A stretch of DNA of 32,124 nt from Marivita sp. S6314 (GTDB lineage: Bacteria > Pseudomonadota > Alphaproteobacteria > Rhodobacterales > Rhodobacteraceae), in NCBI RefSeq assembly GCF_023015985.1, contig NZ_JALKAO010000010.1, forward strand, positions 1 through 32,124, written 5' to 3'. Shown in pieces: positions 5,686 through 29,226 of this stretch. The number at the start of each line of letters is the position of its first letter. Position 1 is the first letter of the stretch. The notes under the pieces are model-generated. The model ran no database searches. It saw only the letters and a list, made by a program, of their open reading frames with translations, and had not been told where the DNA came from. A program made the translations under genes and the position numbers.

Positions 5686-5707
5686 GTGTTTTACCACTTG
5701 GTAAAAA

Positions 5708-7075: not shown

Positions 7076-7107
7076 AAGGGCGCGTTCCATTTCTGGTCCG
7101 CGCCCTT
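7076..7107 (-). terminator. Hairpin between mgsC and gmaS, possible attenuator
   Basis: Arms AAGGGCGCG (7076-7084) and CGCGCCCTT (7099-7107) are perfect, and the loop holds a further CCA/TGG pairing after a 2x2 internal mismatch. On the minus strand the following stretch is only moderately T-rich (TTCTCATTT). It may partially terminate the mgs transcript, or stabilise RNA ends between mgsC and gmaS. Confidence 0.5.
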
Positions 7108-7123
7108 TTGGTAATGGGTTTTG

Positions 7124-8470: not shown

Positions 8471-8481
8471 GTCTGGTATCC

Positions 8482-9165: not shown

Positions 9166-9166
9166 A

Positions 9167-10096: not shown

Positions 10097-10141
10097 GAGT
10101 AAAATTCTCCCCAAGCGGCTCCATGTGAGCCTTCGACCGAA

Positions 10142-10170
10142 ACGTTAGCACCAAAGATTTTTTCTCTCAA
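10142..10170 (-). promoter_or_regulatory. Candidate promoter for mgsABC-gmaS
   Basis: Reading the minus strand, TTGAGA (10170-10165) and TAACGT (10147-10142) are 17 bp apart, 46 bp or more before the mgsA start. The -35 box is fair and the -10 box poor (three of six), so this is tentative. Confidence 0.25.
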
Positions 10171-10185
10171 CTGTGAAGAATAAAA

Positions 10186-10201
10186 TTTTCATCTCAGTCA
10201 A
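10186..10201 (-). promoter_or_regulatory. Copy B of the island motif (TTGACTGAGATGAAAA) before mgsA
   Basis: The minus strand reads TTGACTGAGATGAAAA, 14 of 16 identical to the copy before the fdh genes. It lies between the amt-operon terminator and the candidate mgsA promoter, about 90 bp before the mgsA start. Confidence 0.55.
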
Positions 10202-10206
10202 AAGAA

Positions 10207-10231
10207 AAATGGGCCCGGCATGGGCCCATTT
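10207..10231 (-). terminator. Terminator of the amt operon
   Basis: Ten-base arms AAATGGGCCC (10207-10216) and GGGCCCATTT (10222-10231) enclose a 5-base loop. On the minus strand the stem runs into a T-rich tract (TTTTTCTTTT), the form of an intrinsic terminator for amt and the 72-codon gene. Confidence 0.85.
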
Positions 10232-10253
10232 GTTCTTGTGTCGGTTGAACCGC

Positions 10254-10472
10254 TCAGTACCGTTCAACGGATCGTTGGACTTTTTCGTGATCCAGAGCCC
10301 GCTGGCTGGCGGCTTCCAGGTGCTTGCGCTCGCGCACAAACTGGATCCGGTGCCATCCCAGCCAGAACAGGACGCCGACAATCGTCATCGGGATTTCCCA
10401 TCCCTGCATCGGGTAAATGGGGCCCACTTCGGCCAGATCAACGGCCCAGTTTTCGTATCCAATGGTAGACAT
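10254..10472 (-). CDS. Small single-pass membrane protein downstream of amt
   Basis: A 72-residue protein with one hydrophobic segment (about residues 27-40, IPMTIVGVLFWLGW) followed by a charged helix rich in Arg, Glu, His and Lys. AAGGAG lies seven bases before ATG 10472, a strong signal for so small a gene. It starts 11 bp after the amt stop and ends before the shared terminator, so it is co-transcribed with amt. I do not recognise the family; an accessory or regulatory partner of the transporter is an inference from position and topology. Confidence 0.72.
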   Translation of the reverse strand: MSTIGYENWAVDLAEVGPIYPMQGWEIPMTIVGVLFWLGWHRIQFVRERKHLEAASQRALDHEKVQRSVERY

Positions 10473-10483
10473 CTGGTCTCTCC

Positions 10484-11857
10484 TTAGTTTGCTGGCCGCG
10501 CTTTGCTCGCGAGATAGGCTTTGTCGGCTTCAATGATGGCCTCTTTTGCGTCCTCGTAGGCGTGGTTCTCGGCGTAATCGAGACCTTCGAGTTCCACCTC
10601 TTCGGGGATTCGCAAAACACCGGCTGCGGCCTGCATCTTGGCGACGATAAACGCCGGCAGGAAACCCAGGCCAAAGAACATGATCATTGCGCCCAGGAAT
10701 TGGCCAAGCGGGTTGATCGTGGCGTAGCCTTCAAATGGCGACGACGGCGCGCCCCAAAGGACAAATCCCGCGATCACGAGACCGATGAAACCCGCGTATC
10801 CGTGAACAGCCACGGCCCCCACCGCATCATCCAGCTTGAACTTCCGTTCAACCCAGTAGTGCAGTTTGTAGGCGATCACGACGCCGATGGCGGCGATGAT
10901 CATGGACTGGATCGGGTGATAGAGGTCGTTGCCCGCCGACGCGGTGATGACCCCGGCCAGACCGCCGGAGAAGGTCCAGAACGCATCCCCGCGCGAGATC
11001 ACGTAAGCCGCCATCAGACCGCCGGAGAGCGACATCAGGAAGTTGAAGGTGATCGCCGAAAGCGATGTGGGCGCGAGATAGATGTTGGTTGCGGTCCAGG
11101 TTGTGCCGGTGATCTGTCCGCCGATGGCCTCGGGGGAAATCGCGGGCACGTTGCACGCGGCGTAAAAGCCCCAGAAACCGGTGTAGATCAGGAAGATCCC
11201 GATGGTCAGCATCCACGGATTGTGCGGCGGGATGTCCCGAGGGGTGCCGTCGGCAGCGAATTTGCCGATTCGCGGTCCAAGCACGGTAATCACGCCCAGC
11301 GCGTATCCCCCGGCGATGGCATGGATCACACCAGAGGCGTAGGCATCGTGGTAGCCAAGGTATTTGACCATCCAGCCACCGTAGTGCCAGCCCCAGGCGG
11401 CGTCGATGATCCACCAGACCGAGCCGATCAGAACCGCGTGGACCCACAATGCAGAGGATCGGATCCGTTCGATGACCGATCCGGACACGATGGACGCCGC
11501 TGTCCAGGAGAACAGCAGGAAGGCCGCCCAGAACACGCCGGTGATCCGGTCGTCGAGATTCGTGGCCATGTTCTGCGACCAGGGCAGATTCGCGGCACCG
11601 GCTTCCAGATCAAGTCCGCCGAAGAACGGGAACATGGGGAACGCCCAGTAAATCCACCACCCAAAGAAAAAGAACGTCACGGTGACCAGCGGTATGACCA
11701 TGACGTTCTTCATCAACGTATGCATGTGGTTGCGGCGGCGACTTGCGCCGACTTCATACATGCAGAAGCCGACGTGAATTAAGAACATGAAGACGACCGT
11801 CACCCAGTAATAAAACTCGGTGAACACCGTCGTCAGTGCGTTTAGGTTTCCATCCAC
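10484..11857 (-). CDS. amt: Amt-family ammonium/methylammonium transporter
   Basis: A 457-residue protein with about eleven membrane segments. Amt landmarks are present: SASIVSGS-like pore segment TAASIVSGSVIER, the first pore histidine in ASGVIHAIAGG with a preceding Asp (YHDAYASG), and the second in DDAVGAVAVHGYAG. The C-terminal 45 residues are acidic and helical. It probably moves ammonium or methylammonium across the inner membrane; location beside gmaS and mgs genes favours a role in methylamine use or recapture of released ammonium. The start is GTG 11857 (GAGGG nine bases upstream); the nearby ATG at 11853 is out of frame. No PII gene is adjacent, unlike the common glnK-amtB pair. Confidence 0.88.
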   Translation of the reverse strand: MDGNLNALTTVFTEFYYWVTVVFMFLIHVGFCMYEVGASRRRNHMHTLMKNVMVIPLVTVTFFFFGWWIYWAFPMFPFFGGLDLEAGAANLPWSQNMATNLDDRITGVFWAAFLLFSWTAASIVSGSVIERIRSSALWVHAVLIGSVWWIIDAAWGWHYGGWMVKYLGYHDAYASGVIHAIAGGYALGVITVLGPRIGKFAADGTPRDIPPHNPWMLTIGIFLIYTGFWGFYAACNVPAISPEAIGGQITGTTWTATNIYLAPTSLSAITFNFLMSLSGGLMAAYVISRGDAFWTFSGGLAGVITASAGNDLYHPIQSMIIAAIGVVIAYKLHYWVERKFKLDDAVGAVAVHGYAGFIGLVIAGFVLWGAPSSPFEGYATINPLGQFLGAMIMFFGLGFLPAFIVAKMQAAAGVLRIPEEVELEGLDYAENHAYEDAKEAIIEADKAYLASKARPAN

Positions 11858-12000
11858 TTTTTGTGTCCCTCACTGTTGTTGACCGGTTTTATTTGCCCGG
11901 TAGGAATATTTTTTTAATCAGGCTGCTTGCCGGTGTTGTGTTTTGTCAAGTCTTGGGGGCTGGTTTTTTTGTGTCGCACAGGCTGTGGGACACCGCCTGC

Positions 12001-12040
12001 GCGTCACGCGCCGCAGACATTCGCGCTCTGCGTGTGACGC
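12001..12040. promoter_or_regulatory. Compound inverted repeat in the amt/dmmD divergent region
   Basis: Outer arms GCGTCAC (12001-12007) and GTGACGC (12034-12040) enclose inner arms CGCAGA (12012-12017) and TCTGCG (12027-12032). It lies near the middle of the 313-bp gap between amt and dmmD. It may be an operator or a leader-RNA hairpin. The rest of the gap is AT-rich towards amt and holds island motif copy D; I see no convincing promoter pair in it. Confidence 0.3.
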
Positions 12041-12065
12041 AGGGTCAAGCGACGCGCTGCAAATT

Positions 12066-12081
12066 TTGCCTGAGAGGAAAA
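12066..12081 (+). promoter_or_regulatory. Copy D of the island motif (TTGCCTGAGAGGAAAA) before dmmD
   Basis: Fourteen of 16 bases match the copy before the fdh genes. It lies 89 bp before the dmmD start on the plus strand and about 210 bp before amt on the other side. Confidence 0.5.
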
Positions 12082-12170
12082 AAATCTGCACATGAGTATT
12101 GATTTTTGCAGGTCTATCAGTCTGAATGCCGCCAACACTAATCACAAGACATGAGAATAGGGGGGCCGAG

Positions 12171-13322
12171 ATGGCTATTCTTTGGAGGACATCCGCACTT
12201 GCACAGCGTCACGCCGAAATCGGTGGTGAGCTGGAAGATTGGAACGGCATGGGCACGGCATGGTTTTACGACCACACGCCCGAACGCGCCAAGGCGGACT
12301 ATGAAGCGATCCGCACGAAGGCGGGGCTCATGGATGTGTCCGGACTCAAGAAGGTGCACGTTACCGGTGCAGACGCGGCGTATGTGATTGATCGTGTGAC
12401 CACCCGCAACGTCGAAAAGATCGCGCCCGGCCGGTCAACCTATGCGTCGATCCTGAATGACCAGGGCAAGTTCGTTGACGACTGCATCATCTACCACATC
12501 GCGGTGAATTCGTGGCTGGTTGTGCATGGCACCGGCACCGGCATGGAGCAGCTGACATCCGTTGCGGCGGGCAAGAACTGCACCGTGATCTTTGATGACG
12601 ACCTGCATGACATGTCGCTGCAGGGTCCGGTTGCGGTTGATCTGCTGGCCAAAGAAATCCCGGCTGTGCGGGACCTGTCCTATTTCGGTCTGATGCAGAC
12701 ACGCCTTTATGGCCGTGACGTGATGATTTCGCGCACGGGCTATACCGGTGAGCGTGGCTACGAAATTTTCTGCCGTGCCAAGGATGCGGTGCATCTGTGG
12801 GACAGCATTCTGGAGGCGGGCAAAGACATGGGTGTGCGTCCGACACAGTTCAGCACGCTCGATATGCTGCGCATCGAAAGCTACCTGCTGTTCTATCCCG
12901 GCGACAACTCGGAAACCTTCCCGTTCGACGACGAACCCTGCGGCGATACGCTCTGGGAACTGGGACTCGACTTCACCGTTTCCCCCGGCAAAACTGGCTT
13001 TATCGGTGCAGAGAACCACTACGCGCTGGAAGGCAAGGAGCGGTTCAAGATTTACGGTGTGAAGTTGTCCGGCGACGCGATGGACCAGATGGAGATGCAT
13101 GCGCGCGTTCTGCATGACGGCAAGGACGTGGGTGTGATCACCTATGGTCTGTCGTCCGAACTGAACGGTTATTCCGTTGCGATTGCCCGTCTGTCGCCAG
13201 AGGTGGCGGTTGCCGGAACCAAGCTGACGGTCAAGCAGCCGGATGGCACCGAACTGGCCGCAACTGCGGAAGAGATGCCGTTCTACGATAAGGACAAGTC
13301 GATCCGCACCGCAAAAGGCTAA
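12171..13322 (+). CDS. dmmD: GcvT-family THF-binding protein of dimethylamine oxidation (DmmD-like)
   Basis: A 383-residue aminomethyltransferase (GcvT) fold protein. The family motif SRTGYTGERGYEIF lies near residues 185-198, almost identical to that in Tdm. It probably binds THF and captures formaldehyde released by dimethylamine oxidation as methylene-THF. ATG 12171 follows AGGGGGG by five bases; the in-frame ATG 12126 lacks a box. DmdA (DMSP demethylase) is a paralogue of similar size, but the position directly before dmmABC favours the DmmD role. That DmmD is the GcvT member of the dmmDABC set is from memory. A strong hairpin separates it from dmmA. Confidence 0.75.
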   Translation: MAILWRTSALAQRHAEIGGELEDWNGMGTAWFYDHTPERAKADYEAIRTKAGLMDVSGLKKVHVTGADAAYVIDRVTTRNVEKIAPGRSTYASILNDQGKFVDDCIIYHIAVNSWLVVHGTGTGMEQLTSVAAGKNCTVIFDDDLHDMSLQGPVAVDLLAKEIPAVRDLSYFGLMQTRLYGRDVMISRTGYTGERGYEIFCRAKDAVHLWDSILEAGKDMGVRPTQFSTLDMLRIESYLLFYPGDNSETFPFDDEPCGDTLWELGLDFTVSPGKTGFIGAENHYALEGKERFKIYGVKLSGDAMDQMEMHARVLHDGKDVGVITYGLSSELNGYSVAIARLSPEVAVAGTKLTVKQPDGTELAATAEEMPFYDKDKSIRTAKG

Positions 13323-13333
13323 ACCAGAAAAAC

Positions 13334-13357
13334 AGAGCGTGCCGATTGGCACGCTCT
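13334..13357 (+). terminator. Intrinsic terminator/attenuator between dmmD and dmmA
   Basis: Perfect 10-bp arms AGAGCGTGCC (13334-13343) and GGCACGCTCT (13348-13357) with a GATT loop are followed by TTTTT. It sits 12 bp after dmmD and 34 bp before dmmA, so it should lower dmmABC expression relative to dmmD unless dmmA has its own promoter. Confidence 0.85.
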
Positions 13358-13390
13358 TTTTGAATTAAAGAAGGGCGAGAGACGCAAGCG

Positions 13391-13993
13391 ATGTCAAAGT
13401 TTCAATTCCCGGAAAGCATCAAAAGCAGGCCCGTCTACGGCACGCTGGAACCGCGTCCCGGCAAAGCGCATCTGTTGATCGCGGACGCAGAAGGGGCCGA
13501 GGCTATTCTGGACCTGGCGGCGCAGGACGCCGACCTGATTGCCAAGGCGCACATCATCTTTATTCCCAAGGGCACCGATTATTCGGACAAGCTGAGGGCG
13601 CTGAACCCCGCGCAGTATTACGAAGGCCCGTCTTACGAGGCGTCGCTTCAGCGGTTGCGTCACGTGCTGGCCCATGCCCATCAGGGGTTGCAGGTGTACC
13701 TGACCGGCACCGAGGGATTGATGGGGCAGGCGCAGAACGAAGCGATGCAGGCCGGTATCCCGCACACCGCGATCCAGACCGAACATCGCGGGTCGGTCGC
13801 ACGCCGGATGCAGTGCGTGCACTGCAAGGGAATCACCGAAGACGTCATGCATGATCCATTCCAATGCGCGCATTGTGGATTGCATCTTTTTGTCCGCGAT
13901 CACTATTCCCGCCGTCTCGCCGCCTTTCAGGGCGTGCGCGTGGATGCGGAAGATCCCGGAAATATCCCAGATCCTGTGGAGCTGTATTCATGA
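13391..13993 (+). CDS. dmmA: Dimethylamine monooxygenase subunit DmmA
   Basis: A 200-residue protein of the DmmA family. The N-terminal two thirds resemble a small Rossmann-like domain. Near the C-terminus Cys142, Cys145, Cys159 and Cys162 form two CxxC pairs (QCVHC and QCAHC), a likely zinc or iron ribbon, followed by RDHYSRRLAAFQGV. It acts with DmmB and DmmC in NADPH- and O2-dependent oxidation of dimethylamine to methylamine plus formaldehyde. Only a weak GAGAG box precedes ATG 13391. It overlaps dmmB by ATGA. Confidence 0.88.
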   Translation: MSKFQFPESIKSRPVYGTLEPRPGKAHLLIADAEGAEAILDLAAQDADLIAKAHIIFIPKGTDYSDKLRALNPAQYYEGPSYEASLQRLRHVLAHAHQGLQVYLTGTEGLMGQAQNEAMQAGIPHTAIQTEHRGSVARRMQCVHCKGITEDVMHDPFQCAHCGLHLFVRDHYSRRLAAFQGVRVDAEDPGNIPDPVELYS

Positions 13994-14976
13994 GCGCTGC
14001 CCCTCAGAAAGCCAAACCGGGCGCTGAACAAATCCCGGTCACCGTCAGCGCGGTTGTTCCGTTGAACGACCTCGTGACACGATTCGAATTCAAGCGGACC
14101 GACGGTGCGCCGTTCCCGACCTTTTCCGGTGGCGCCCATACCGTTGTGACGATGCAGGATGACGGGCGCACGCGGTTGAACCCGTATTCGCTGATGTCCG
14201 ATCCCGCCGATACGTCGACCTACGCCATTTCGGTGCGTCGGGATGATCAGGGCCGGGGCGGATCGCTGTTTATGCACACCCGCGTGAAGGTTGGCGACGA
14301 GATGACGCTGACCTACCCGGTGAACCTGTTTTCGCTGGATCTGCGGGCGCGCAAGCATCTGTTCTTTGCCGGTGGTATCGGCATCACGCCGTTCATGTCG
14401 ATGATTGCACAGCTTGAGCGGATGAACGGCCACTGGGAACTGCACTATGCGGTTCGGACCGAGGCGCTTGGGACGTATGTTGATGAGCTGCGCTACAAGT
14501 TCCCGAACAAGGTGCATGTCTATTACGACGATCAGAACGACGCGATCCCGCTGGAGTCGCTTCTGGATGGTCAGCCTTTGGGCACCAATGCCTATGTGTG
14601 CGGCCCGAAAGGCATGATCGACTGGGTGCACGCCACCGCAGCCGCATCGGGCTGGCCGGATGCGCAGGTGCATTCAGAAGAATTCATGGCACCCCAGCCG
14701 GGCGCGCCGTTCGAAGTGCGGCTGTGCAAATCGGACAAGACGATCAAGGTCGGCGAAAACGAAAGCCTGCTGGAAGCGATGGAACGGGAAGGTGTGGAAG
14801 CGCCGTTCTTGTGCCGTGGCGGTGCCTGCGGGCAGTGTGAAACCGACGTGGTGTCTTATGACGGTGAATTCGTCCACCGCGACCACTGGCTGGACGATGA
14901 CCAGCATGCAAGTGGGCAGAAAATCATGCCATGCGTCAGCCGCTTTGTCGGCAAATCCCTGGAGCTTGACAGATGA
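13990..14976 (+). CDS. dmmB: Dimethylamine monooxygenase reductase subunit DmmB
   Basis: A 328-residue phthalate-dioxygenase-reductase-like protein. Order of domains: flavin-binding barrel with RLNPYSL (62-68), NAD(P) domain with GGIGITPF (128-135) and CGPKGM (204-209), then a plant-type 2Fe-2S ferredoxin domain with Cys275, Cys280, Cys283 and Cys315. It passes electrons from NAD(P)H to the haem subunit DmmC. ATG 13990 overlaps the dmmA stop by ATGA; the upstream in-frame start at 13864 would lie inside dmmA and adds Arg-rich residues with no family resemblance. It overlaps dmmC by four bases. Confidence 0.88.
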   Translation: MSAAPQKAKPGAEQIPVTVSAVVPLNDLVTRFEFKRTDGAPFPTFSGGAHTVVTMQDDGRTRLNPYSLMSDPADTSTYAISVRRDDQGRGGSLFMHTRVKVGDEMTLTYPVNLFSLDLRARKHLFFAGGIGITPFMSMIAQLERMNGHWELHYAVRTEALGTYVDELRYKFPNKVHVYYDDQNDAIPLESLLDGQPLGTNAYVCGPKGMIDWVHATAAASGWPDAQVHSEEFMAPQPGAPFEVRLCKSDKTIKVGENESLLEAMEREGVEAPFLCRGGACGQCETDVVSYDGEFVHRDHWLDDDQHASGQKIMPCVSRFVGKSLELDR

Positions 14977-16040
14977 CCATTCAGTTCAACGAAGAGACAT
15001 TCCGCGACGATTATTCGTTCCGCAATTCGGAGTGGGCGATCAAGCGCTTTCCGTTCCCGTTCCACGAAGACAGCTACATGTATTCGGTGAACATGGAGCA
15101 GCACCGGGGCGGGCCGGAAGGGTCTGTGTACGAAAAGCGCTTCGATGTGGACGAGCATTACGTGTCCGAGATGCGGGACCGGGCAATGGTTCTTGCCGAT
15201 GATCCGCTGCGTTGCCAGAGCCTGCCGCACATGACATTGGCCGGGTGGGACACGCTGGAACTGATCATGGTCAGCAAATCCGAGGATTACCCGGACCTGT
15301 TCGAACTGCACCGCGACGGTGATCGCTGGCGCTGGATCAACAAGCCGATGGGCATCGACCACACGTTCACGTTCCTTGATGAAACAACGCTGCCTTGCGA
15401 TCCGCTGGAATACATCACGCGGCAGGCGCAGGGGGACTTTGCCGTTCTCGATCAGCGGGACGAGATGCTTTACATGGACGCCGGCATGATCACGACGCAG
15501 GCGGACTGGAGCCTCGATTTCGACATCGGCATGGACTTCTTCGAATGGCATGCGCCGGTTCCGCTGGCCCACGAGATGGGTATTTTCAAGCGCGCGCTGA
15601 AATTCCTGCTGAACATTCAGCAAGGGGCCCCGGCGCGGCGTCTGAACTGGACCATGACGGTGAATCCGCTGCTGGATACCAGCCCGGAAAACTATCACAA
15701 ATGGGGTGTTCAAAAGACAACGCTGACGCCCGAGAATATCGGGTCCAAACAGCACCTGCGCGTGGAATTGCAGACCTTCTACCGGTTGCCACGGTCGAAT
15801 GCGCTGTTGTTCCCGATCCGGTGCTACCTGATTGCGTTCCAGGACCTTGTGTCGATGCCGAAATGGGGTCGCCGTTTGCACCGTGTGATCCGCGATCTGC
15901 CCGAAGAACTGGCGACGTATAAGGGCTTTATCGACAATCGTCCGATGATGCTTGATTACCTGAGCAAGTTTGACGATGGCCTGCCGACAAGCCCGGGGGT
16001 GTTCCCGGATCTTGAAAGCGAACCACCGCTTCAGAAATAA
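14973..16040 (+). CDS. dmmC: Dimethylamine monooxygenase catalytic subunit DmmC (haem-dependent oxidative N-demethylase family)
   Basis: A 355-residue protein of the DUF3445/haem-dependent oxidative N-demethylase family. Recognisable segments are the early FPFPFHEDSYMYSVNMEQ, the central aspartate- and tryptophan-rich DRWRWINKPMGIDHTF, and the late LRVELQTFYRLPRSNALLFPIRCYL stretch typical of the family. It is taken to carry the haem and PAS-like fold where dimethylamine is hydroxylated. Translation is coupled to dmmB by ATGA. The gene ends the dmmABC operon just before a strong terminator. Which subunit holds the active site is family knowledge, not visible here. Confidence 0.87.
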   Translation: MTIQFNEETFRDDYSFRNSEWAIKRFPFPFHEDSYMYSVNMEQHRGGPEGSVYEKRFDVDEHYVSEMRDRAMVLADDPLRCQSLPHMTLAGWDTLELIMVSKSEDYPDLFELHRDGDRWRWINKPMGIDHTFTFLDETTLPCDPLEYITRQAQGDFAVLDQRDEMLYMDAGMITTQADWSLDFDIGMDFFEWHAPVPLAHEMGIFKRALKFLLNIQQGAPARRLNWTMTVNPLLDTSPENYHKWGVQKTTLTPENIGSKQHLRVELQTFYRLPRSNALLFPIRCYLIAFQDLVSMPKWGRRLHRVIRDLPEELATYKGFIDNRPMMLDYLSKFDDGLPTSPGVFPDLESEPPLQK

Positions 16041-16044
16041 TAGA

Positions 16045-16069
16045 AAAGCCCCGCGAAATGCGGGGCTTT
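16045..16069. terminator. Bidirectional terminator between dmmC and the XRE-cupin gene
   Basis: Ten-base arms AAAGCCCCGC (16045-16054) and GCGGGGCTTT (16060-16069) enclose GAAAT. The T tail is short (TTTCTC), and the minus strand continues into TCTATT, so it can serve both convergent genes. Confidence 0.75.
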
Positions 16070-16088
16070 CTCGTTCACGTTGAATGCC

Positions 16089-16742
16089 TTAGGTGTTCTG
16101 CGGGTACGAAATGATCGACAGGTATTTCGCTGGCAGATCGACCAGGTTTTCCGGCCCGTGCGGCGCATCCGCGTCGAAAAATAGCGTATCGCCCGGTCGC
16201 AGCGGAAAAACGTCAGCGCCGTGTCGGTAGTCAATCGCGCCTTCCAGCATATAGATCGTTTCGATCCCGCCATGCTGGAACGTTTCGAATGTATCGCTTT
16301 CGGCGGTCAGTTCGATCAGATACGGCTCAACAATCACGCCGCTGGCGTTGCTGCCAATGTGCCCCAGAAGCGTATATTGGTGCCCCGCGCGCGTGCCTTC
16401 GCGTTCTGTTTCAACGCCTTGACCGGCCTTGGTATGCACCGCTTCGCGCCGTTCTTCGAACTGGCGGAAGAAAGAGGTGAGCGGCACCGACAGCACGTTG
16501 GCCAGCGTTTGCAAAGTGGACAGCGACGGTGACGTGTTGCCGTTCTCGATCTTTGACAACATCCCGACCGACAGGCCGGTCCGTTCCGAGAGTTCGGCAA
16601 CGGTTGTCCCTTGTGCCTTGCGAAAGCTGCGCACCTCTCGGCCGATCGCAACTTCGAGCACTTTCTCGCGGACTGTGCGGGATGCATGCGGATCCTGCGT
16701 AAGACGCACTATCATTTCGGGTACCGTTTCGGCTATCTCCAT
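16089..16742 (-). CDS. XRE-family transcriptional regulator with C-terminal cupin domain
   Basis: A 217-residue regulator. A helix-turn-helix of the Cro/C1 type spans about residues 30-85 (RSFRKAQGTTVAELSERTGLSVGMLSKIENG, with LSTLQTLANVL after it), and a small-molecule-binding cupin about 140-215 (GGIETIYMLEGAIDYR, PLRPGDTLFFDADAPHGPEN). ATG 16742 is chosen because AAGGAG is nine bases upstream; GTG 16748 would leave only three. It is divergent from the GlxA-type gene and shares its promoter region. XRE-cupin proteins often repress amine or amino-acid catabolic genes, and this one is the best local candidate to bind the island motif, a copy of which lies in its own upstream region. Confidence 0.85.
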   Translation of the reverse strand: MEIAETVPEMIVRLTQDPHASRTVREKVLEVAIGREVRSFRKAQGTTVAELSERTGLSVGMLSKIENGNTSPSLSTLQTLANVLSVPLTSFFRQFEERREAVHTKAGQGVETEREGTRAGHQYTLLGHIGSNASGVIVEPYLIELTAESDTFETFQHGGIETIYMLEGAIDYRHGADVFPLRPGDTLFFDADAPHGPENLVDLPAKYLSIISYPQNT

Positions 16743-16810
16743 ACTCACGGTCTCCTTAATTAGCGTCGTGTCGCACGTCCATATGAATAGTTTAGTGAAG
16801 TTTCTTGTGA

Positions 16811-16838
16811 TTGCCAGAAATTTTCCTGTCAGTATAAA
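16811..16838 (+). promoter_or_regulatory. Sigma-70-type promoter of the GlxA-family gene
   Basis: TTGCCA (16811-16816) and TATAAA (16833-16838) match five of six consensus bases each and are 16 bp apart. Initiation would fall about 20 bases before ATG 16867. This is the best promoter match I found in the window. Confidence 0.6.
16821..16836 (-). promoter_or_regulatory. Copy C of the island motif inside the regulator promoter
   Basis: The minus strand reads TATACTGACAGGAAAA, 14 of 16 identical to the fdh copy. It occupies the spacer and overlaps the -10 box of the plus-strand promoter, a position that would block RNA polymerase if a protein bound it. It also lies about 80-95 bp before the XRE-cupin start, so autoregulation is possible. 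Confidence 0.6.
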
Positions 16839-16866
16839 TTCGCGGCATTAATTGAGTGTGACCCCG

Positions 16867-17862
16867 ATGGCGAAACCGTTTTCAACAGGATTTCTGATCT
16901 TCCCCGGCTTTCCGATGGCCTGTCTGACGTCGATGATCGAACCGATGCGGGCGGCGAATGAAATCTCGGGGCAGGCTGCGTTTGAGTGGCATCTGGTGTC
17001 GGAAACAGCGGGCAAGGTCAAAGCCAGCGCGTTGGTCGAGTTTGAACCCAACCATGTGCTCGACGATGTGGACGATCTGGATCTGCTGATCCTGCTGTCT
17101 TCCCCCACAGCCCAGTTCGAGGCGAAATCCACCTCTGGCAAATTGCGGTCCTTACAGCGCCACGGCACGATTGTGGGGGCGGTCAGTGGCGGTGTGTTCC
17201 CGCTGGTGCGGGCGGGCATTGCCGGCGACAAACCATTGTCTGTGCATTGGTGCTATAAATCTGCCTTTGATGCAGAGTTCCCGTCGCATCGCAGTTCGGA
17301 CCGGGTGATCGAAATTTCCGAAACGCTGCTGACCGCGTCTGGTGCTGCGGCGGCGTTTGATCTGTCATTGCACATCATCGAAAAGCGGCTTGGTGCGGGG
17401 CTGGCCACAGAGGTGGCGTGTTGGTTTCAGCATCCCGTCATGCGCCGCGAAGGGGTCGATCAGGCCATCCCGGCGCTGAGCGGGGATACAGCCGGTGCGC
17501 AGTTCCCGCCGTTGGTCGAACGGGCGGTGAAAATGTTCGCGCAACATATCGAGGAACCGATTTCGGTCGGGTCTGTGGCCGACACGCTTGGGATCTCGCC
17601 GCGCCATCTGGAACGGTCGTTCAAGCAGTCAACCGGCCTGAACCCGACGCATTACTATCGCAAACTGCGCATGGATGCGGCGCGACAGATGGTTCTTTAT
17701 ACCAATGACCGGATGAGCGACGTTGCGGCCGCGGTGGGCTATAACAGCGCGCAGACCTTTGCGAAACACTATCACACTGCGTTTGGCGTCACCCCCAAGG
17801 AAGACCGGAACCGGATCAATCTGTTCCGGGTCCGGGGCAATCTGTCGGTGCCGTCGGTGTAA
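16867..17862 (+). CDS. GlxA-family transcriptional regulator (GATase1-like + AraC HTH)
   Basis: A 331-residue regulator. Residues to about 180 form a DJ-1/PfpI-like sensor domain; the nucleophile elbow reads VGAVSGGVF, so the usual Cys is absent and the domain should sense rather than catalyse. The last 100 residues are an AraC-type double helix-turn-helix (ISVGSVADTLGISPRHLERSF, then MSDVAAAVGYNSAQTFAKHYHTAFGVTP). GbdR and related regulators of glycine betaine and sarcosine use share this layout. ATG 16867 is preferred; GTG 16858 and TTG 16852 are in-frame alternatives and no strong box decides. It is convergent with mgdD, three bases apart, and may activate mgd, dmm or mgs genes. Confidence 0.85.
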   Translation: MAKPFSTGFLIFPGFPMACLTSMIEPMRAANEISGQAAFEWHLVSETAGKVKASALVEFEPNHVLDDVDDLDLLILLSSPTAQFEAKSTSGKLRSLQRHGTIVGAVSGGVFPLVRAGIAGDKPLSVHWCYKSAFDAEFPSHRSSDRVIEISETLLTASGAAAAFDLSLHIIEKRLGAGLATEVACWFQHPVMRREGVDQAIPALSGDTAGAQFPPLVERAVKMFAQHIEEPISVGSVADTLGISPRHLERSFKQSTGLNPTHYYRKLRMDAARQMVLYTNDRMSDVAAAVGYNSAQTFAKHYHTAFGVTPKEDRNRINLFRVRGNLSVPSV

Positions 17863-17865
17863 CGG

Positions 17866-18441
17866 TCAGTGGGCCGAGCGGATGGCCGTCATCAACGCGT
17901 GATGCAACGACCCGGCCGAGGAGCGTGGACCCATCACCATGATATGCGTCGGGTCTGCGACCACCACGAAACAGCCCAGATGGTCAATGCTGGTCCGCGT
18001 CGCCTCTCCTCCGGAACAGGCGCGGATATTGAACGGGCAGAGCCGTTCGAACACGTCGGCCAATCCGTCGCCTAACAGATCAAAGCGGCACCAGGCGTCG
18101 TTCTGTTCGGTGATGCTGGCCGATCCGTTGGCCAGTGGCACCAACTGCGCCGCCAGGTCTTCGTGCGATGTGTGTGGTGCGGTGACCATCCACTGGTCCG
18201 GGCCGGTCCAGAACGCACCAAGCGCGTCGCCGAACACGGCGCGACCGGCCTCTGGTACCGGCGTGCCAAGGAACTTGGCCAGCACGTCTTGCGCTGTCGA
18301 TTCCTGACCCAACCGGGACGCGAAGGACGCGATGGCGGTGTTGGTCACCTCGGTCAGGGTGACCGGGCCATGTGTGTCCACACGGGGTTCAGTGCCGCCC
18401 AGCGGCGTGCGCGGGATCATGTCGTTGGAACGGTCAGACAC
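17866..18441 (-). CDS. mgdD: N-methylglutamate dehydrogenase / sarcosine oxidase gamma subunit
   Basis: A 191-residue SoxG-like protein of the heterotetrameric sarcosine oxidase family; the gamma chain is structural with a partial GcvT-like fold. Recognisable parts are FWTGPDQWMV, the SITEQNDAWCRFDL stretch and the SIDHLGC end segment. The start is taken as GTG 18441, overlapping the mgdC stop by eight bases with AAGGAG nine bases upstream; a longer ATG at 18501 would lie within mgdC and lacks a box. It is the last gene of the mgd operon. Assignment to N-methylglutamate rather than sarcosine rests on the surrounding genes. Confidence 0.8.
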   Translation of the reverse strand: MSDRSNDMIPRTPLGGTEPRVDTHGPVTLTEVTNTAIASFASRLGQESTAQDVLAKFLGTPVPEAGRAVFGDALGAFWTGPDQWMVTAPHTSHEDLAAQLVPLANGSASITEQNDAWCRFDLLGDGLADVFERLCPFNIRACSGGEATRTSIDHLGCFVVVADPTHIMVMGPRSSAGSLHHALMTAIRSAH

Positions 18442-21385: not shown

Positions 21386-21669
21386 TTCGACCGTCCCTCT
21401 TGTCTGGCAACATCGCGCGCCAGTTCGACCTTGGTGATTTCATGGGTGGTGGTGTCGCGTGTCACGACCAGCCAGGACCGGTCCCCCCCTTCGTGAAACC
21501 ACAATTCGCGGTGCAGGCCCGCCGGGTTGCTGCGCAGGTAGCCGTAGTCGATGAACTGGTCCAGGGCATCTTCGGCTTCCCAGTCGGGGCGATGGATCAG
21601 TGCGGCGTCGCCCAGATACGTGAATTCGGAGGCATCGCGCGGGCCAAGCAGCGGGTGATGAATGATCAT
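21382..21669 (-). CDS. mgdB: N-methylglutamate dehydrogenase / sarcosine oxidase delta subunit, zinc ligands lost
   Basis: A 95-residue SoxD-like protein. Classical SoxD opens with CPxCGxR and binds zinc through two N-terminal cysteines plus a later His and Cys. Here the opening is HHPLLGPRD (His5 and Leu8 in the cysteine places), and the later pair reads WFHEGGD, keeping His59 but with Asp63 instead of Cys. Three of four ligands are thus gone, while EF, NPAG-HRE and WLVVTRDT family residues remain. It lies between mgdA (12-bp gap) and mgdC (ATGA overlap). The change may mark the N-methylglutamate branch of the family. Confidence 0.82.
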   Translation of the reverse strand: MIIHHPLLGPRDASEFTYLGDAALIHRPDWEAEDALDQFIDYGYLRSNPAGLHRELWFHEGGDRSWLVVTRDTTTHEITKVELARDVARQEGRSK

Positions 21670-21681
21670 GGTGCGCGGTCC

Positions 21682-22932
21682 TCAGTGCAGGTTGGGCTGA
21701 TTGCCCATGCCTTTTTCGTCGATCATCAAGCCACGGTTGAAGCGGTCGAATCGATACGCGGTTGCGGTCGGGTGGGGTTCGTCGCGGGCCAGCAGGTGGG
21801 CATAGACATAGCCCGATGCCGGCGTGGCCTTGAACCCGCCATAGCACCAGCCTCCATTGAAATAGAGCCCGTCGATATGGGTCTTGTCGATGATCGGCGA
21901 GCCATCCATCGACATGTCCATGATCCCGCCCCACATGCGCAGAAGCCGCGCGCGTCCCAGCATCGGGAAGATCGCCATGCCGCCTTCGCAGACGTCTTCG
22001 ACCACCGGCAGGTTGCCGCGCTGCGCGTAGGAATTGTAGCCGTCAAGATCGCCACCGAAGACCAGCCCGCCCTTGTCGGACTGGCTGCAATAAAAGTGAC
22101 CCGCGCCAAAGGTGATGACGCCCGGCAGCACAGGCTTCAGACCTTCGGACACAAAGGCCTGCAGCACATGGCTTTCGATGGGAAGCCGCATGCCTGCCTT
22201 CGCCATCACCCGGCTGGACGATCCAGCCACGCAGGAGGCAACCTTGCCCGCCTTGATCGTGCCGCGCGAGGTTTCGACCCCGGTGCAGGTGCCGTTTTCG
22301 ATCAGGAATCCGGTGACTTCGCAGTTCTGGATGATATCGACACCCAACCGGTCTGCGCCGCGCGCATAGCCCCACGCCACCGCGTCGTGGCGAACGGTGC
22401 CGCCGCGATGTTGCGCCAGGCCGCCCTTGATCGGGAAGCGGGGGTTTTCGGTGTTCAGGAACGGGTAGCGTTCCTTGATCTGTGCCGTTGTCAGCAGGTC
22501 AGCATCCGCGCCGTTCAACATCATCGCGTTGCCGCGCCGGATGAAAGCGTCGCGCTGCGCGTCCGTATGGATCAGGTTCAGGATGCCGCGCTGGCTAACC
22601 ATTGCGTTATAGTTAAGGTCCTGTTCCAGCCCTTCCCACAGCTTCAGCGAGAATTCATAGAACGGTTCATTGCCATCCAGCAGGTAGTTGGAACGGATGA
22701 TCGTCGTGTTGCGGCCCACGTTGCCGCCACCGATCCAGCCTTTTTCAAGCACCGCGATCCGCTTCTGGCCGTAGATCTTGGCCAGATAATACGCGGTGGC
22801 CAGGCCGTGGCCGCCGCCGCCGATGATCACGATATCATAGGCGCTTTTGGGCTCGACGTCGCGCCACGCTGGTTTCCAGCCTTTGTGGCCGGTCAAGGCC
22901 TCTTTAATAACCCGTAATCCGGAATAACGCAT
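21682..22932 (-). CDS. mgdA: N-methylglutamate dehydrogenase / sarcosine oxidase beta subunit
   Basis: A 416-residue SoxB-like flavoprotein oxidase, the catalytic chain. The FAD-binding DIVIIGGGGHGLATAYYLAK lies at about 33-52, followed by EKGWIGGGNVGRNTTIIRSNY and by QHRGGTVRHDAVAWGYARG (175-193), which contains the histidines (175, 182) where covalent FMN attachment is expected in this family. The C-terminal FAD region shows YFNGGWCYGGFKATP. ATG 22932 follows AAAGGAG by nine bases; the longer start at 22998 has no box and adds residues foreign to the family. It is the first gene of the mgdABCD operon, divergent from tmoX. Confidence 0.85.
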   Translation of the reverse strand: MRYSGLRVIKEALTGHKGWKPAWRDVEPKSAYDIVIIGGGGHGLATAYYLAKIYGQKRIAVLEKGWIGGGNVGRNTTIIRSNYLLDGNEPFYEFSLKLWEGLEQDLNYNAMVSQRGILNLIHTDAQRDAFIRRGNAMMLNGADADLLTTAQIKERYPFLNTENPRFPIKGGLAQHRGGTVRHDAVAWGYARGADRLGVDIIQNCEVTGFLIENGTCTGVETSRGTIKAGKVASCVAGSSSRVMAKAGMRLPIESHVLQAFVSEGLKPVLPGVITFGAGHFYCSQSDKGGLVFGGDLDGYNSYAQRGNLPVVEDVCEGGMAIFPMLGRARLLRMWGGIMDMSMDGSPIIDKTHIDGLYFNGGWCYGGFKATPASGYVYAHLLARDEPHPTATAYRFDRFNRGLMIDEKGMGNQPNLH

Positions 22933-22969
22933 GGAATCGGACTCCTTTGCGCAATGATGTCCGAAATTC

Positions 22970-22998
22970 TTGGTCGATTCTGTACTATACCGGACCAA
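22970..22998 (-). promoter_or_regulatory. Candidate mgdA promoter region with inverted repeat
   Basis: The minus strand carries TATAGT, a good -10 box, about 50 bp before the mgdA start, though no good -35 box is spaced correctly. Arms TTGGTC (22970-22975) and GACCAA (22993-22998) flank this box symmetrically, so a dimeric activator or repressor could act here. Confidence 0.35.
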
Positions 22999-23040
22999 AA
23001 ACCATGCAAATCAGACATCTCGAATAGAAAATCCGATTTA

Positions 23041-23050
23041 TGTGATCACA
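23041..23050. promoter_or_regulatory. Perfect palindrome TGTGATCACA between mgdA and tmoX
   Basis: A 10-bp perfect palindrome in the 287-bp divergent region, 109 bp before mgdA and 170 bp before tmoX. It resembles GntR/FadR-type half-site arrangements more than CRP, which needs a six-base spacer. It is short enough that chance is possible. Confidence 0.3.
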
Positions 23051-23087
23051 TTTGAGGCAAGAAGATCGCCCTTCAAAAGAAAAATAT

Positions 23088-23116
23088 TTGATCCACAGTA
23101 AAAATTTCGGTATTTA
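23088..23116 (+). promoter_or_regulatory. Candidate tmoX promoter with weak copy E of the island motif
   Basis: TTGATC (23088-23093) and TATTTA (23111-23116) are 17 bp apart. The first box starts TTGATCCACAGTAAAA (23088-23103), which matches 12 of 16 bases of the fdh motif copy. Both assignments are weak alone; their coincidence is the reason to list it. Confidence 0.35.
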
Positions 23117-23180
23117 TCCCGACCAGTCGCATACGGGTGCATGGACGCCGCGACTGAAGCTATCGCGCACTGGGCTCTGA

Positions 23181-24161
<981 letters not shown>

Positions 24162-24182
24162 GCGTTCAGCCCTGCAGATCAT

Positions 24183-24211
24183 AAGCCCTGTCCGACTGTC
24201 GGGCAGGGCTT
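24183..24211 (+). terminator. Hairpin with T-run between tmoX and tmoW
   Basis: Thirteen-base arms AAGCCCTGTCCGA (24183-24195) and TCGGGCAGGGCTT (24199-24211), paired with one G-U, are followed by TTTTT. It should act as a partial terminator so that more binding protein than importer is made, a common arrangement in ABC uptake operons. Confidence 0.85.
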
Positions 24212-24284
24212 TTTCATAGACAAATCCCGAGCAGACGCGCAGCATAAGCAGCGTCCCCAAGCTCTTTTTACGTTGGAGTCCCCG

Positions 24285-25304
24285 ATGACCACTGACGCAC
24301 CTGTTATTTCCTGTAAGAACGTCTGGAAGATCTTTGGAGATGATCCAGAGGGCTATCTTGCGAAGATGCCGGCCGGACAAAGCTACGACGACATCCGGGC
24401 TGACGGGTACATCGCCGGAGTGAAAGACGTTTCGATCGAGGTCGGACGCGGAGAAATGCTTGTTATCATGGGATTGTCGGGGTCCGGCAAATCCACGCTG
24501 GTCCGTTGTTTTTCACGGTTGCACGATATCACCGGCGGCACGATCGAGGTCGAGGGTCAGGATATCATGGCGCTGGCTGAGAAAGACCTGATCGACCTGC
24601 GCCGCAACAAAATGGGCATGGTGTTCCAAAGCTTTGGCCTGTTGCCACACCGCACCGTACTCGACAATGTCGCGTTTCCGCTGGAAATGCGCGGTCAGGA
24701 CAAACATGCCCGTCGCGCGCGGGCGCTCGAAGTGATCAAGCTGGTTGGTCTGGAAGGGCGCGAGGATTATTTCCCGCGCGAGTTGTCCGGTGGCCAGCAA
24801 CAGCGCGTCGGCATTGCCCGCAGCCTCGCCATTGAGCCGGATATCTGGTTTCTGGACGAACCGTTCTCGGCGCTTGACCCGTTGATCCGCCGCGAAATGC
24901 AGGACGAGTTTTTGCGTCTTCAGGAAATGCTCGGCAAGACCATCGTGTTTATCACGCATGACTTTGACGAAGCGCTGCGCCTTGCGGACCGAATTGCGAT
25001 CATGAAAGACGGTGCCGTTGAGCAATGCGACACGCCAGATCAGATCGTGATGCACCCGGCGACGGAATATGTTCGAAAATTCACGGAAGATATCGACAAA
25101 TCGCGCGTCGTACACGCCAGCGTTCTGGTCAAACCGGATGCGCAGGGCGAAGGTGATCCCGTCTCTTCAACCGCGACAATCCATGATCTGGCCCCGACGC
25201 TTGTGGCGGATCTGCGCGAATTCATCCCCGTGACGGATGGCACCGCGGTGATTGGTGCCCTGTCTCGTCAGGAGGCGCTGGAAGTCTTGGTGGGAGCTGA
25301 CTGA
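24285..25304 (+). CDS. tmoW: TMAO ABC importer, ATP-binding subunit
   Basis: A 339-residue ProV-like ATPase. Walker [10 protein letters not shown] is at 63-71, the Q-loop in [14 protein letters not shown], the signature LSGGQ at 167-171, Walker B IWFLDEP with Asp191 and Glu192, and the switch histidine in FITHDFDEA. The last 55 residues are a short CBS-like tail, as in osmotic-stress importers. ATG 24285 has GGAG six bases upstream, so the longer TTG start at 24273 is not used. It overlaps tmoV by three bases (TGATG). Confidence 0.9.
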
Positions 25305-27283
25305 TGGCTGTCATTTCCACCAATCAACCGGGCATCAAGCCACAACAGTATACGTCGACGCAGATCGCCACGGGTGTGTTCTGCGTCGCGCTGATTTTCA
25401 CCCTGCTGCAGTTTACCGGCCTGCTGCCATCCTGGCTGCACCGGTTGCCGGAGAGCTGGATACCGCCCTTCGCGGTCTGGCTGGACGCCGCGTTCAACTT
25501 TATCCGGACCGATCTTGGTCTGGAAAAGCTGACGCGCTGGTTCGCGGAAGGGCCATTGCAATTCATGCTCGATACATCGGCCAACCTGCTATACGGCAAG
25601 AAACGCTGGCCCGGGTTTGAACAGATCCCGTGGAGCGCCATCGCGGCGGCGGCGGCGGTACTGGGCTATTACCTGGGCGGTTGGCGTCTGGCGGCACTTG
25701 CGGGGGGCACATTTGTGTGGACCGCATTGATCGGCCAGTGGACCATCGCAATGGAAACCATGTCGGTTCTGGTTGTTGCCGCTCCGATGGCTTTTGTCAT
25801 TGGTCTGGGACTGGGCATTGCCGCTTGGAAATACCCGTGGGTGGACCGGGCGATCAAACCGATCCTGTCGGTTCTGCAGACGCTGCCGTTCTTCACGTAT
25901 CTTTTGCCTGCGGTCATCTTTTTCAAAGTTGGTCCAACAGCCGGTGCGGTTGCCACGATCATCTATGCCATTCCGCCGATGATCCTGATGACCACTCTGG
26001 GTCTCAAGAAAGTGTCGTCAGAAGTGGTGGAAGCCGGCAAGATGTCCGGATGTTCCCGCTTCCAGATGCTGCGGCATGTCTACGTGCCCGCTGCGCGGAC
26101 CGAGATCCTTGTTGGCGTGAACCAGGTGATCATGCTGTGTCTGGCGATGGTGGTTCTGACCGCGTTTATCGGGATGCCGGGACTTGGCGCCAAGCTGCTT
26201 GCGATGATGGGCAGTTTCAAACTGGGCCGTTCGTTCGAAATCGGCGTGACGATTGTGCTTCTGGCGGTGACGCTGGACCGGCTGTCCAAGGCGTGGGTGG
26301 TGAAACTGCCCGAGCATTTCGAGAAGGGCACCCCCTGGTGGCAGCGGCACAAGTACCTGCTCGCGGGTGTGGGCGCGTTTGTGTTCTTTACCATCCTGGG
26401 CCAGTTCGTGGAGTGGTTTGCCGAAATCGGACGCCGCCAGAACTTTTCGCAGGGCAAGGAAATCGACACGGCGATCAAGACTTTCCTGGCCTTTGACCTT
26501 GTGCAGGCCACGACGGAAAAGATCCGCTACGTGCTGAATGTTTGGGTGCTGAACCCGTTCCGGGACTTCCTGCTGTCGATTCCGACGGCCGGGTTCATCC
26601 TTTTTGTCGTGGCGGGGGCGCTGGCCCTTGGGGGCCGACGGTCCGGGATTTATGCTGCGGTGTTCTTTGGTCTGGTGGCCCTTTCGGGTTGGTGGGACCG
26701 GTCGGTCATCACCTTGTACTCGGTGATTTCGGCGGTGATCCTTGCGACGCTGATTGGTCTGCCAATCGGGATACTGGCGGCACGGTCCGAAAAATGGTCG
26801 CAGCGCGTTCTGCTGATCTGTGACACGGCGCAAACCTTCCCGAGCTTCATCTACCTGATCCCGGCGATCATGCTGTTTGGCATCACGGCGACGTCCGTGG
26901 TCATGTCGATCCTGATCTTCGCCATGGTGCCGCTGGTGCGGTACACGGTCGAAGGCTTGCGCGGCGTGCCCGAGGAAATGAACGAAGCGGCAGACATGTC
27001 CGGGGCCACCCGGATGCAGAAGCTGTGGAACGTGCAATTGCCCCTGGCGCTGCCAACGATGGCGGTCGGCTTTAACCAGGCGATCATGTTCGCGTTCTTC
27101 ATGGTGATCATTGCGGCCTTTATCGGGACGCAGGACCTTGGTCAGGAATTGCAGAAGACCCTGGCCGGGACCGATCTTGGCAAGAACTTTGTTCTGGGTA
27201 TTTGCGTGTCGCTGATGGCGCTGACCTTCGACATGGCGATCATGACCTGGGCAGACCGAAAGAAGCGGCTTCTCGGATTGTGA
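25304..27283 (+). CDS. tmoV: TMAO ABC importer, double-length permease
   Basis: A 659-residue inner-membrane permease made of two BPD_transp_1 halves in one chain, each with its own ATPase-contact EAA loop: GCSRFQMLRHVYVPAA near residue 248 and GATRMQKLWNVQLPLA near 566. Many membrane segments are visible in both halves, plus extra N-terminal helices (ATGVFCVALIFTLLQFTG). Ordinary ProW proteins hold one such half and dimerise; here one gene supplies both. GGGAG lies seven bases before the ATG. It is the last tmo gene, followed by a structured 254-bp gap. Confidence 0.9.
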   Translation: MAVISTNQPGIKPQQYTSTQIATGVFCVALIFTLLQFTGLLPSWLHRLPESWIPPFAVWLDAAFNFIRTDLGLEKLTRWFAEGPLQFMLDTSANLLYGKKRWPGFEQIPWSAIAAAAAVLGYYLGGWRLAALAGGTFVWTALIGQWTIAMETMSVLVVAAPMAFVIGLGLGIAAWKYPWVDRAIKPILSVLQTLPFFTYLLPAVIFFKVGPTAGAVATIIYAIPPMILMTTLGLKKVSSEVVEAGKMSGCSRFQMLRHVYVPAARTEILVGVNQVIMLCLAMVVLTAFIGMPGLGAKLLAMMGSFKLGRSFEIGVTIVLLAVTLDRLSKAWVVKLPEHFEKGTPWWQRHKYLLAGVGAFVFFTILGQFVEWFAEIGRRQNFSQGKEIDTAIKTFLAFDLVQATTEKIRYVLNVWVLNPFRDFLLSIPTAGFILFVVAGALALGGRRSGIYAAVFFGLVALSGWWDRSVITLYSVISAVILATLIGLPIGILAARSEKWSQRVLLICDTAQTFPSFIYLIPAIMLFGITATSVVMSILIFAMVPLVRYTVEGLRGVPEEMNEAADMSGATRMQKLWNVQLPLALPTMAVGFNQAIMFAFFMVIIAAFIGTQDLGQELQKTLAGTDLGKNFVLGICVSLMALTFDMAIMTWADRKKRLLGL

Positions 27284-27310
27284 TTCGGGAATAACCGACC
27301 GCTTTTCCGA

Positions 27311-27380
27311 GGCGGGTCATCGACAGGCCGACGGGTGGCGCAAACGCGCAGAGTCCCGTCGCGCATGGCGATGGCCCGCC
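27311..27380 (+). other. Nested inverted repeats (structured RNA or terminator) after tmoV
   Basis: Outer arms GGCGGGTCATCG (27311-27322) and CGATGGCCCGCC (27369-27380) pair over 12 bp with one G-U. Inside, CGACGGG (27329-27335) pairs with CCCGTCG (27355-27361), and the top holds a GCGC/GCGC possibility around 27338-27349. The following tract (TCTTGTCTTT) is T-rich but not a clean run. It lies 27 bp after the tmoV stop. It may be a terminator, a transcript-stabilising end or a small RNA. Confidence 0.5.
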
Positions 27381-27457
27381 TCTTGTCTTTGTGTCAAACC
27401 TGCGCCGAGAGATGGCGGAACGGCAGGAAGAATTTCCAAATATTTCTCGTTTCCTTG

Positions 27458-27473
27458 TTGACTGACAGGAAAA
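27458..27473 (+). promoter_or_regulatory. Copy A of the island motif (TTGACTGACAGGAAAA) before the fdh genes
   Basis: Reference copy of the motif, 64 bp before the formate dehydrogenase start. It is embedded in a wider dyad, TTTCCT (27450-27455) and AGGAAA (27467-27472). TTGACT could also act as a -35 box, but no -10 box is well placed. Confidence 0.55.
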
Positions 27474-27537
27474 TAAATTGAACAAAAAGAATACTGAGGC
27501 GCTGCAGGCGAGAGCAGGTGGCTGTAGGAGGTAGGAC

Positions 27538-29223: not shown

Positions 29224-29226
29224 TCC

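Follow-up and report, generated by a model that had tools for sequence, protein, structure and literature searches.

Which regulator acts on a short motif that recurs between the genes of a methylamine catabolic island in Marivita sp. S6314? The island occupies a window of 32 kb, by which we mean the whole stretch of DNA analysed here (assembly GCF_023015985.1, contig NZ_JALKAO010000010.1, positions 1-32,124 of the forward strand); the draft genome has 3,767,503 bases (3.77 Mb) in 39 contigs, and contig 1 is the window. It holds genes for the catabolism of trimethylamine (TMA) and trimethylamine N-oxide (TMAO): tdm, gmaS-mgsABC, amtB, dmmDABC, a gene for an XRE-cupin protein, a gene for a GlxA/AraC-type regulator (tmaR), mgdBDAG with its sarcosine-oxidase-like subunits, tmoXWV and the formate dehydrogenase genes (fdh). 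A sequence-only reading had noticed copies of a 16-mer upstream of pathway genes and suggested that they are the operator of an island-specific regulator, not described before. That proposal is supported by the comparisons reported below, according to which the motif is very probably the palindromic operator of the XRE-cupin regulator.

The 16-mer, TTGACTGACAGGAAAA, is present exactly at 27458-27473 on the plus strand and with two mismatches at 10186-10201 (minus), 12066-12081 (plus) and 16821-16836 (minus), and a copy with 12 of 16 matches was read directly at 23088-23103, before tmoX. Direct reading and the mismatch search agreed with the coordinates given earlier for all five copies, which are located in gaps between pathway genes, before mgsA, dmmD, tmoX and fdh and between the XRE-cupin gene and tmaR. 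Allowing up to 3 mismatches, the window contained 4 matches against 0.10 expected, and 0 of 100 dinucleotide shuffles reached 4, so the view that such matches exceed chance was borne out. Across the whole genome, a limit of 2 mismatches gave exactly 4 matches, all of them in the window, while the backward pattern gave 2. The motif did not occur at equal rates elsewhere, since genome-wide matches were confined to the window in both the mismatch and the profile searches. The earlier caution that AT-rich bias helps such matches was a fair point, but AT-richness fails to account for the pattern.

A 21-bp palindrome (dyad), aaTTTTCCTgacAGGAAAAtt, contains the 16-mer in an off-centre position. This palindrome was discovered without using the 16-mer sequence, in DNA upstream of the XRE-cupin gene in the loci of relatives; the named loci, to which all counts per gene match below refer, are the best 80 of at least 587 relatives and surround XRE-cupin homologues. 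A palindrome-constrained search of 81 XRE-cupin upstream regions, the window included, gave AAATTTTCCTGACAGGAAAATTT, and palindrome-constrained expectation maximization (EM) with 150 seeds on 76 regions, excluding those of the window and of four near relatives, gave aaTTTTCCTgacAGGAAAAtt at a log-likelihood of 313 versus 37 for shuffled sequences. Unconstrained EM also recovered the palindrome, both from 40 dmmD regions (log-likelihood 378 versus 63 shuffled) and, for loci with no visible tmaR, from 47 XRE-cupin regions (186 versus 65), and the symmetry was therefore not imposed by the method. Applied to 260-nt XRE-cupin upstream regions, the unconstrained search yielded a motif that was set aside because, by our reading, it marks where the coding sequence of the divergent tmaR begins; shorter regions of loci lacking tmaR worked.

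When the hold-out matrix was run over the window, the five sites already noted ranked 1-5, followed by a sixth site before amtB that the sequence-only reading had missed, and the best score in the reversed window was 10.8 bits. The best copy (16819-16839, no strand assigned, 27.9 bits) lies between the XRE-cupin gene (16089-16748, minus; start GTG 16748 or ATG 16742) and tmaR (16852-17862, plus; likely start ATG 16867; AraC/GlxA type according to Pfam and NCBIfam), and has a counterpart upstream of the XRE-cupin gene in relatives. The remaining palindromes are found upstream of five proposed targets: the dmmDABC operon (12126-16040, plus, annotated with Pfam; palindrome 12063-12083, plus, 23.9 bits, centred about 98 nt before the likely ATG 12171), the fdh genes, a proposed target in this lineage (27538-32004, plus; palindrome 27455-27475, plus, 22.1 bits), the mgsABC-gmaS operon (5708-10114, minus; palindrome 10184-10204, minus, 20.0 bits, centred about 98 nt before the likely ATG 10096), the TMAO transporter genes tmoXWV (23196-27283, plus; palindrome 23085-23105, plus, 17.9 bits) and amtB (10484-11857, minus; palindrome 11890-11910, minus, 17.5 bits). 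The DNA flanking the sites appears unrelated. A profile of 75 foreign sites, out of 88 distinct ones, gave 7 matches in the genome of S6314 at E<=10, at 5 places, none of them outside the window; the tmoX site (10.8 bits) was absent from these matches, for which 150 of 225 first-look candidates were scored, so that this search was not exhaustive.

To score operon leaders in the relatives, we took 220 nt upstream of gene matches of at least 100 bits and at least 45% identity that began within 40 residues of the start and had at least 100 nt of upstream sequence. By these rules regions were scored for 80 of the 80 XRE-cupin matches, 41 of 45 for dmmD, 61 of 61 for mgsA, 25 of 40 for amtB, 18 of 22 for tmoX, 36 of 38 for mgdB and 31 of 33 for tmaR. 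A palindrome of at least 17 bits was present at 31/41 dmmD, 19/25 amtB, 22/61 mgsA, 8/18 tmoX and 41/80 XRE-cupin leaders, the last being training data for 76 of the 80 loci (the remaining four score 22.0, 16.6, 22.0 and 2.4). At 14 bits or more, counted from unrounded scores, the numbers rose to 44/61 for mgsA and 13/18 for tmoX. Reversed regions reached 17 bits once only, at mgsA, and 14 bits at 1/80 XRE-cupin, 1/41 dmmD, 5/61 mgsA, 3/25 amtB and 0/18 tmoX leaders. The few palindromes of at least 17 bits before mgdB (7/36) and tmaR (4/31) were largely in gaps shared with the divergent tmoX or XRE-cupin gene, and some of the regions for tmoX, tmaR and mgdB share DNA with XRE-cupin regions or with one another. 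No region before the operon-internal genes gmaS, mgsB, mgsC, dmmA, dmmB, dmmC, mgdA, mgdD, mgdG, tmoW and tmoV scored 17 bits or more, and 14 bits were reached only before gmaS (1/52) and dmmA (2/44). Conservation at the same genes in related strains was thus found for dmmD, mgsA, amtB, tmoX and the XRE-cupin gene, and was largely lacking for fdh.

It is extremely improbable that these sites are chance likenesses of AT-rich gaps, promoter boxes (with TTGACT as the -35 element) or a functionless local repeat. The sites are indeed AT-rich, some copies hold TTGAC(T), and the operator matrix also gives 14.5 bits to another kind of inverted repeat, TTTTACCAcTTGGTAAAA (5688-5708), which lies immediately beyond the end of gmaS; we rejected it as an operator, and from its position between gmaS and an unverified open reading frame pointing toward it, it is probably a terminator. 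However, at most one region of any gene class scored 17 bits or more in the reversed controls, log-likelihoods after shuffling of the training data were about 3 to 9 times lower, and conservation goes with gene identity and with the XRE-cupin gene across genera.

Two proteins encoded on either side of the best copy had been named as candidate binders, the XRE-cupin protein and the GlxA-type protein. The latter corresponds, by its type and its place between dmm and mgd, to TmaR (SPO1584), the protein that a June 2026 study of Ruegeria pomeroyi presents as master activator of the TMAO/methylamine pathway in that species (PMC13390433, main text). We regard it as improbable that the palindrome is the binding site of this AraC/GlxA-type activator, mainly on account of how the two genes and the palindrome are distributed over 198 genomes of the family (E cut-offs of 1e-40 for XRE-cupin and 1e-60 for TmaR). 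Of these genomes, 52 had both the XRE-cupin gene and mgsA, 6 had mgsA alone and 4 had the XRE-cupin gene alone (p 6e-36). XRE-cupin was thereby found in 52/58 genomes with mgsA and in 27/27 with dmmD, tmaR in 24/58 and 20/27, respectively.

A palindrome of at least 14 bits preceded mgsA in 17/23 genomes with both regulators and persisted in 13/20 that have XRE-cupin and no TmaR, compared with 0/6 that have neither gene; the reversed controls were 2/23, 1/20 and 1/6. For this count mgsA was scored, with scores rounded to 0.1, in 49 of the 58 genomes (43/52 with and 6/6 without XRE-cupin; unscored were G000, G003, G004, G014, G039, G046, G083, G138 and G159). Before dmmD, which is present in 27 genomes, the palindrome was found in 15/19 scorable genomes with both regulators and in 3/7 with XRE-cupin and no TmaR (G127, G153 and G187); G030, a 20th genome with both, was cut by a contig end and not scorable. 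The absence of TmaR does not hide a close substitute in the 10 of the 29 XRE-cupin-positive, TmaR-negative genomes whose best TmaR-like proteins were compared, which have at most 34% identity as against at least 46% within the TmaR set. Twelve of the 29 were also examined at the five best positions per region, and 6/12 had a site of at least 14 bits before a pathway gene.

The opposite class consists of seven genomes with TmaR and no XRE-cupin at the cut-off. In six of them nothing above 13 bits was found in about 20 kb around tmaR (8 regions, five best positions each). The seventh (G038; L145, 7878-7898) has a 23.4-bit palindrome before a gene that is next to tmaR and to a gene for an XRE-cupin protein of 35% identity; by our reading the gene behind the palindrome encodes a Rieske-type oxygenase, and related XRE-cupin proteins may share the operator. 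The pattern expected of a TmaR operator, present with tmaR and absent without it, was not found. As judged from these genomes, the palindrome tracks the XRE-cupin gene, not tmaR, and of the two candidates the co-distribution favours the XRE-cupin protein.

TmaR-positive loci contain another element. A direct repeat, TGTCsGAtnTG...ttTGTCCGAt, with a step of about 21 bp is common to the mgd upstream regions of loci with tmaR (log-likelihood 342 versus 105 shuffled, matrix built on non-coding DNA), and in the window it is located at 22985-23038 on the minus strand, as TCGGAT / GTCTGAT / GTCCGGT in steps of about 21 bp with held-out scores of 19.0 and 15.4, distinct from the palindrome. The repeat scored at least 13.9 in 27/27 TmaR-positive regions (3 held out, window included) versus 1/12 without tmaR, where the class refers to the locus and not the genome and two of 14 regions (L139 and L143) were dropped because the start codon was not found. 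Half-sites in direct repeat are usual for AraC proteins. The palindrome does not have this arrangement; the direct repeat that accompanies tmaR sits before mgd instead, and is a better candidate for a TmaR site than the palindrome.

Several findings weigh against this assignment of the two elements, among them published binding data for TmaR. In the main text of PMC13390433 the TmaR DNA-binding domain (TmaR-DBD), reported as a dimer, binds the promoters of tmaR, dmm, gmaS-mgs, tdm, tmm and mgd with dissociation constants (Kd) of 0.13, 0.31, 0.62, 0.94, 1.40 and 2.64 µM, respectively, fits that have wide errors and were obtained with a fusion of the isolated domain. The three tightest targets, tmaR, dmm and gmaS-mgs, also have the highest palindrome scores among the six promoters in this window, in identical order, and mgd, the site of the proposed TmaR repeat, is the weakest target of all. 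Past the first three the orders disagree (17.9 bits in the tmoX/mgd gap, 14.8 at tdm, tmm being outside the window). Because of the agreement at the top, we have kept a small probability for TmaR as the binder. Nor was the direct repeat found at dmm, mgsA or tmaR. Among the genomes, 13 of the 43 with XRE-cupin had no palindrome of at least 14 bits before mgsA, and it was lacking before dmmD in 4/19 scorable genomes with both regulators and in 4/7 with XRE-cupin and no TmaR. The seven genomes with TmaR and no XRE-cupin have no mgsA or dmmD match, so that only the tmaR and mgd promoters were tested there. The 75-site profile at E<=0.05 hit 9 of the 198 genomes, 4 of which have no XRE-cupin relative at the cut-off, in a scan with stricter filters and 38 candidates scored per genome that is too insensitive for a regulon census. 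Finally, of the ten fdh homologues in relatives, only one has a clear equivalent of the palindrome (19.8 bits, L264), and another a weak one (13.7, L267; reversed control 11.7).

The XRE-cupin protein itself has an N-terminal HTH_3 domain (1e-14) and a C-terminal Cupin_2 domain (1.5e-11) by Pfam, the architecture of XRE-cupin regulators, and its closest solved chain is 1y9q, of the HTH_3 family (E 2.5e-10). According to a study of Pseudomonas aeruginosa, XRE-cupin proteins form dimers and have local targets, with palindromic sites where a motif could be derived (PMC7901475). Likewise, the palindromes described here precede the protein's own gene and neighbouring metabolic operons.

The closest known systems are the gamma-glutamyl-polyamine pathway repressors PuuR of E. 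coli and PauR of P. aeruginosa, with the same HTH_3 and cupin architecture. The PuuR pathway begins with the glutamine-synthetase-like, gamma-glutamylating PuuA, to which GmaS is the parallel here, and the operator of PuuR differs in sequence from our palindrome. PuuR (NF007408) is the best NCBIfam match, at 58.1 bits, well below its cut-off of 211, so the protein is not a PuuR equivalog; it also differs from both repressors in belonging to a methylamine pathway and in the tandem palindromes at mgs and dmm. PauR has a palindromic operator and acts on its own gene and pathway operons (PMC7901475), as we propose here from a palindrome known by its sequence. The TmaR system shares the gene cluster and overlapping target operons, and in the window the TmaR counterpart adjoins the XRE-cupin gene, but TmaR co-occurs with the mgd direct repeat and not with the palindrome. 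A further local regulator of the same pathway, the GntR-type repressor TmoR (SPO1553), differs in that it targets tmm rather than tdm and the genes downstream, as stated in the main text of PMC13390433, and is not proposed as a binder here.

Taken as a whole, a model resembling PuuR and PauR is a likely explanation. A dimer of the XRE-cupin protein would bind aaTTTTCCTgacAGGAAAAtt before its own gene, in the gap shared with tmaR, and before dmmDABC, mgsABC-gmaS, amtB, tmoXWV and, in this lineage, fdh. Its cupin domain would sense a pathway metabolite, which may be methylamine or else a gamma-glutamyl compound made by GmaS/Mgs. Binding would repress transcription until that metabolite is present, as is reported for XRE-cupin proteins that have been studied, with TmaR activating from separate sites. 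What the sequences show directly is that the palindrome exists, that within this genome it is nearly restricted to the island, that relatives conserve it at the same leaders and that it tracks the XRE-cupin gene rather than tmaR.

The sign of regulation was considered from the position of the palindrome relative to predicted promoters, counted for promoters with a palindrome of at least 14 bits in the usual place. For mgsA, the top -10 prediction fell between +46 and +49, counted from the dyad centre, in 33/40 promoters (with z 13.9 for +47). For dmmD, it fell at +49 in 11/29 promoters (z 9.2), and the position of the palindrome relative to the predicted -35 and -10 boxes is conserved there; by eye, the -10 boxes are poor. 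These offsets place the palindrome centre near -60, a predicted position that would suit an activator and thus speaks against repression at these two promoters. In both, a weaker second dyad with its centre 20 bp nearer the gene overlaps or abuts the predicted -35. Before dmmD this dyad-like element is at 12083-12103 (plus), adjoins the predicted -35 (TTGATT) and corresponds to conserved columns at +12 to +31 in 33 dmmD promoters. Before mgsA it is at 10164-10184 (minus) in tandem with the first, its right half holding the predicted -35 TTGA; an unconstrained motif search there returned the junction, AGGAAAAATAgTTTCcT, and conserved columns were also seen. At tmoX, the predicted -10 was at +15 in 7/12 promoters (z 4.3), and the palindrome hence covers the -35 and spacer. 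No single predicted promoter offset stood out at the XRE-cupin gene or amtB; in several relatives a -10-like hexamer was seen by eye at +17 before the XRE-cupin gene.

This geometry leaves room for a dual role, in which the XRE-cupin protein works mainly as an activator at dmm and mgs, with sites near -60 and -40, but represses its own gene and tmoX, where the site lies over the -35 and spacer. The offsets at mgsA and dmmD, the second dyad at the -35 and the predicted repressor-like position at tmoX are in its favour. We nevertheless hold it to be rather unlikely, since the promoters are predicted, a protein at the second site might just as well obstruct the -35, and no common offset emerged at the XRE-cupin gene or amtB. 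Moreover, the XRE-cupin proteins of P. aeruginosa with defined targets are all inhibitors, mostly of neighbouring metabolic genes, as reported in PMC7901475. By analogy with these relatives, repression relieved by a pathway metabolite was taken as the default, and we lean towards repression as the main action of the protein. The operator assignment is the same with either sign.

Some features at the margins of the proposed regulon are worth recording. We do not claim tdm as a target, because its matches in the window are weak (position 1963, 14.8 bits; position 1983, 13.7 bits) and 0/5 relatives reached 14 bits. Two kinds of amtB occur near dmm and mgs genes in relatives, about 78-91% versus 39-42% identical to the window gene; the second kind is mostly in the opposite orientation and makes up most of the amtB matches that were not scored. 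In G037 (L177), a profile match at E<=0.05 precedes a glutamine-synthetase-family gene with 31% identity to GmaS. In G002 (L264), the palindrome of the fdh homologue is 62 nt upstream of the gene, on a contig other than that of the XRE-cupin gene, so that the regulon may reach outside the island.

The breakdown of methylamine and TMAO by Roseobacter-type bacteria is an important route of marine nitrogen. The 2026 paper on the regulation of this route names one master regulator, and a word search of its main text found no "motif", "binding site", "consensus", "XRE", "cupin" or "SPO1583" (PMC13390433). To judge by gene order, SPO1583 may be the R. pomeroyi counterpart of the XRE-cupin gene. In the open-access literature searched, which leaves most subscription papers outside, we found no description of the operator or of the function of this XRE-cupin gene, in line with the sequence-only reading; one paper that came up, PMC8292978, proved to be unrelated. 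We propose an operator, its likely owner in the local XRE-cupin regulator, and a candidate site for TmaR. Since XRE-cupin is present in 52 of the 58 genomes with mgsA and TmaR in 24, the XRE-cupin protein could account for how species lacking TmaR regulate the pathway. If the dual role were true, the protein would be another master switch, so far unrecognised, for the use of TMAO and methylamine in the sea, acting beside TmaR on separate DNA and alone in species without TmaR, and an exception to the reported inhibit-only rule for XRE-cupin proteins.

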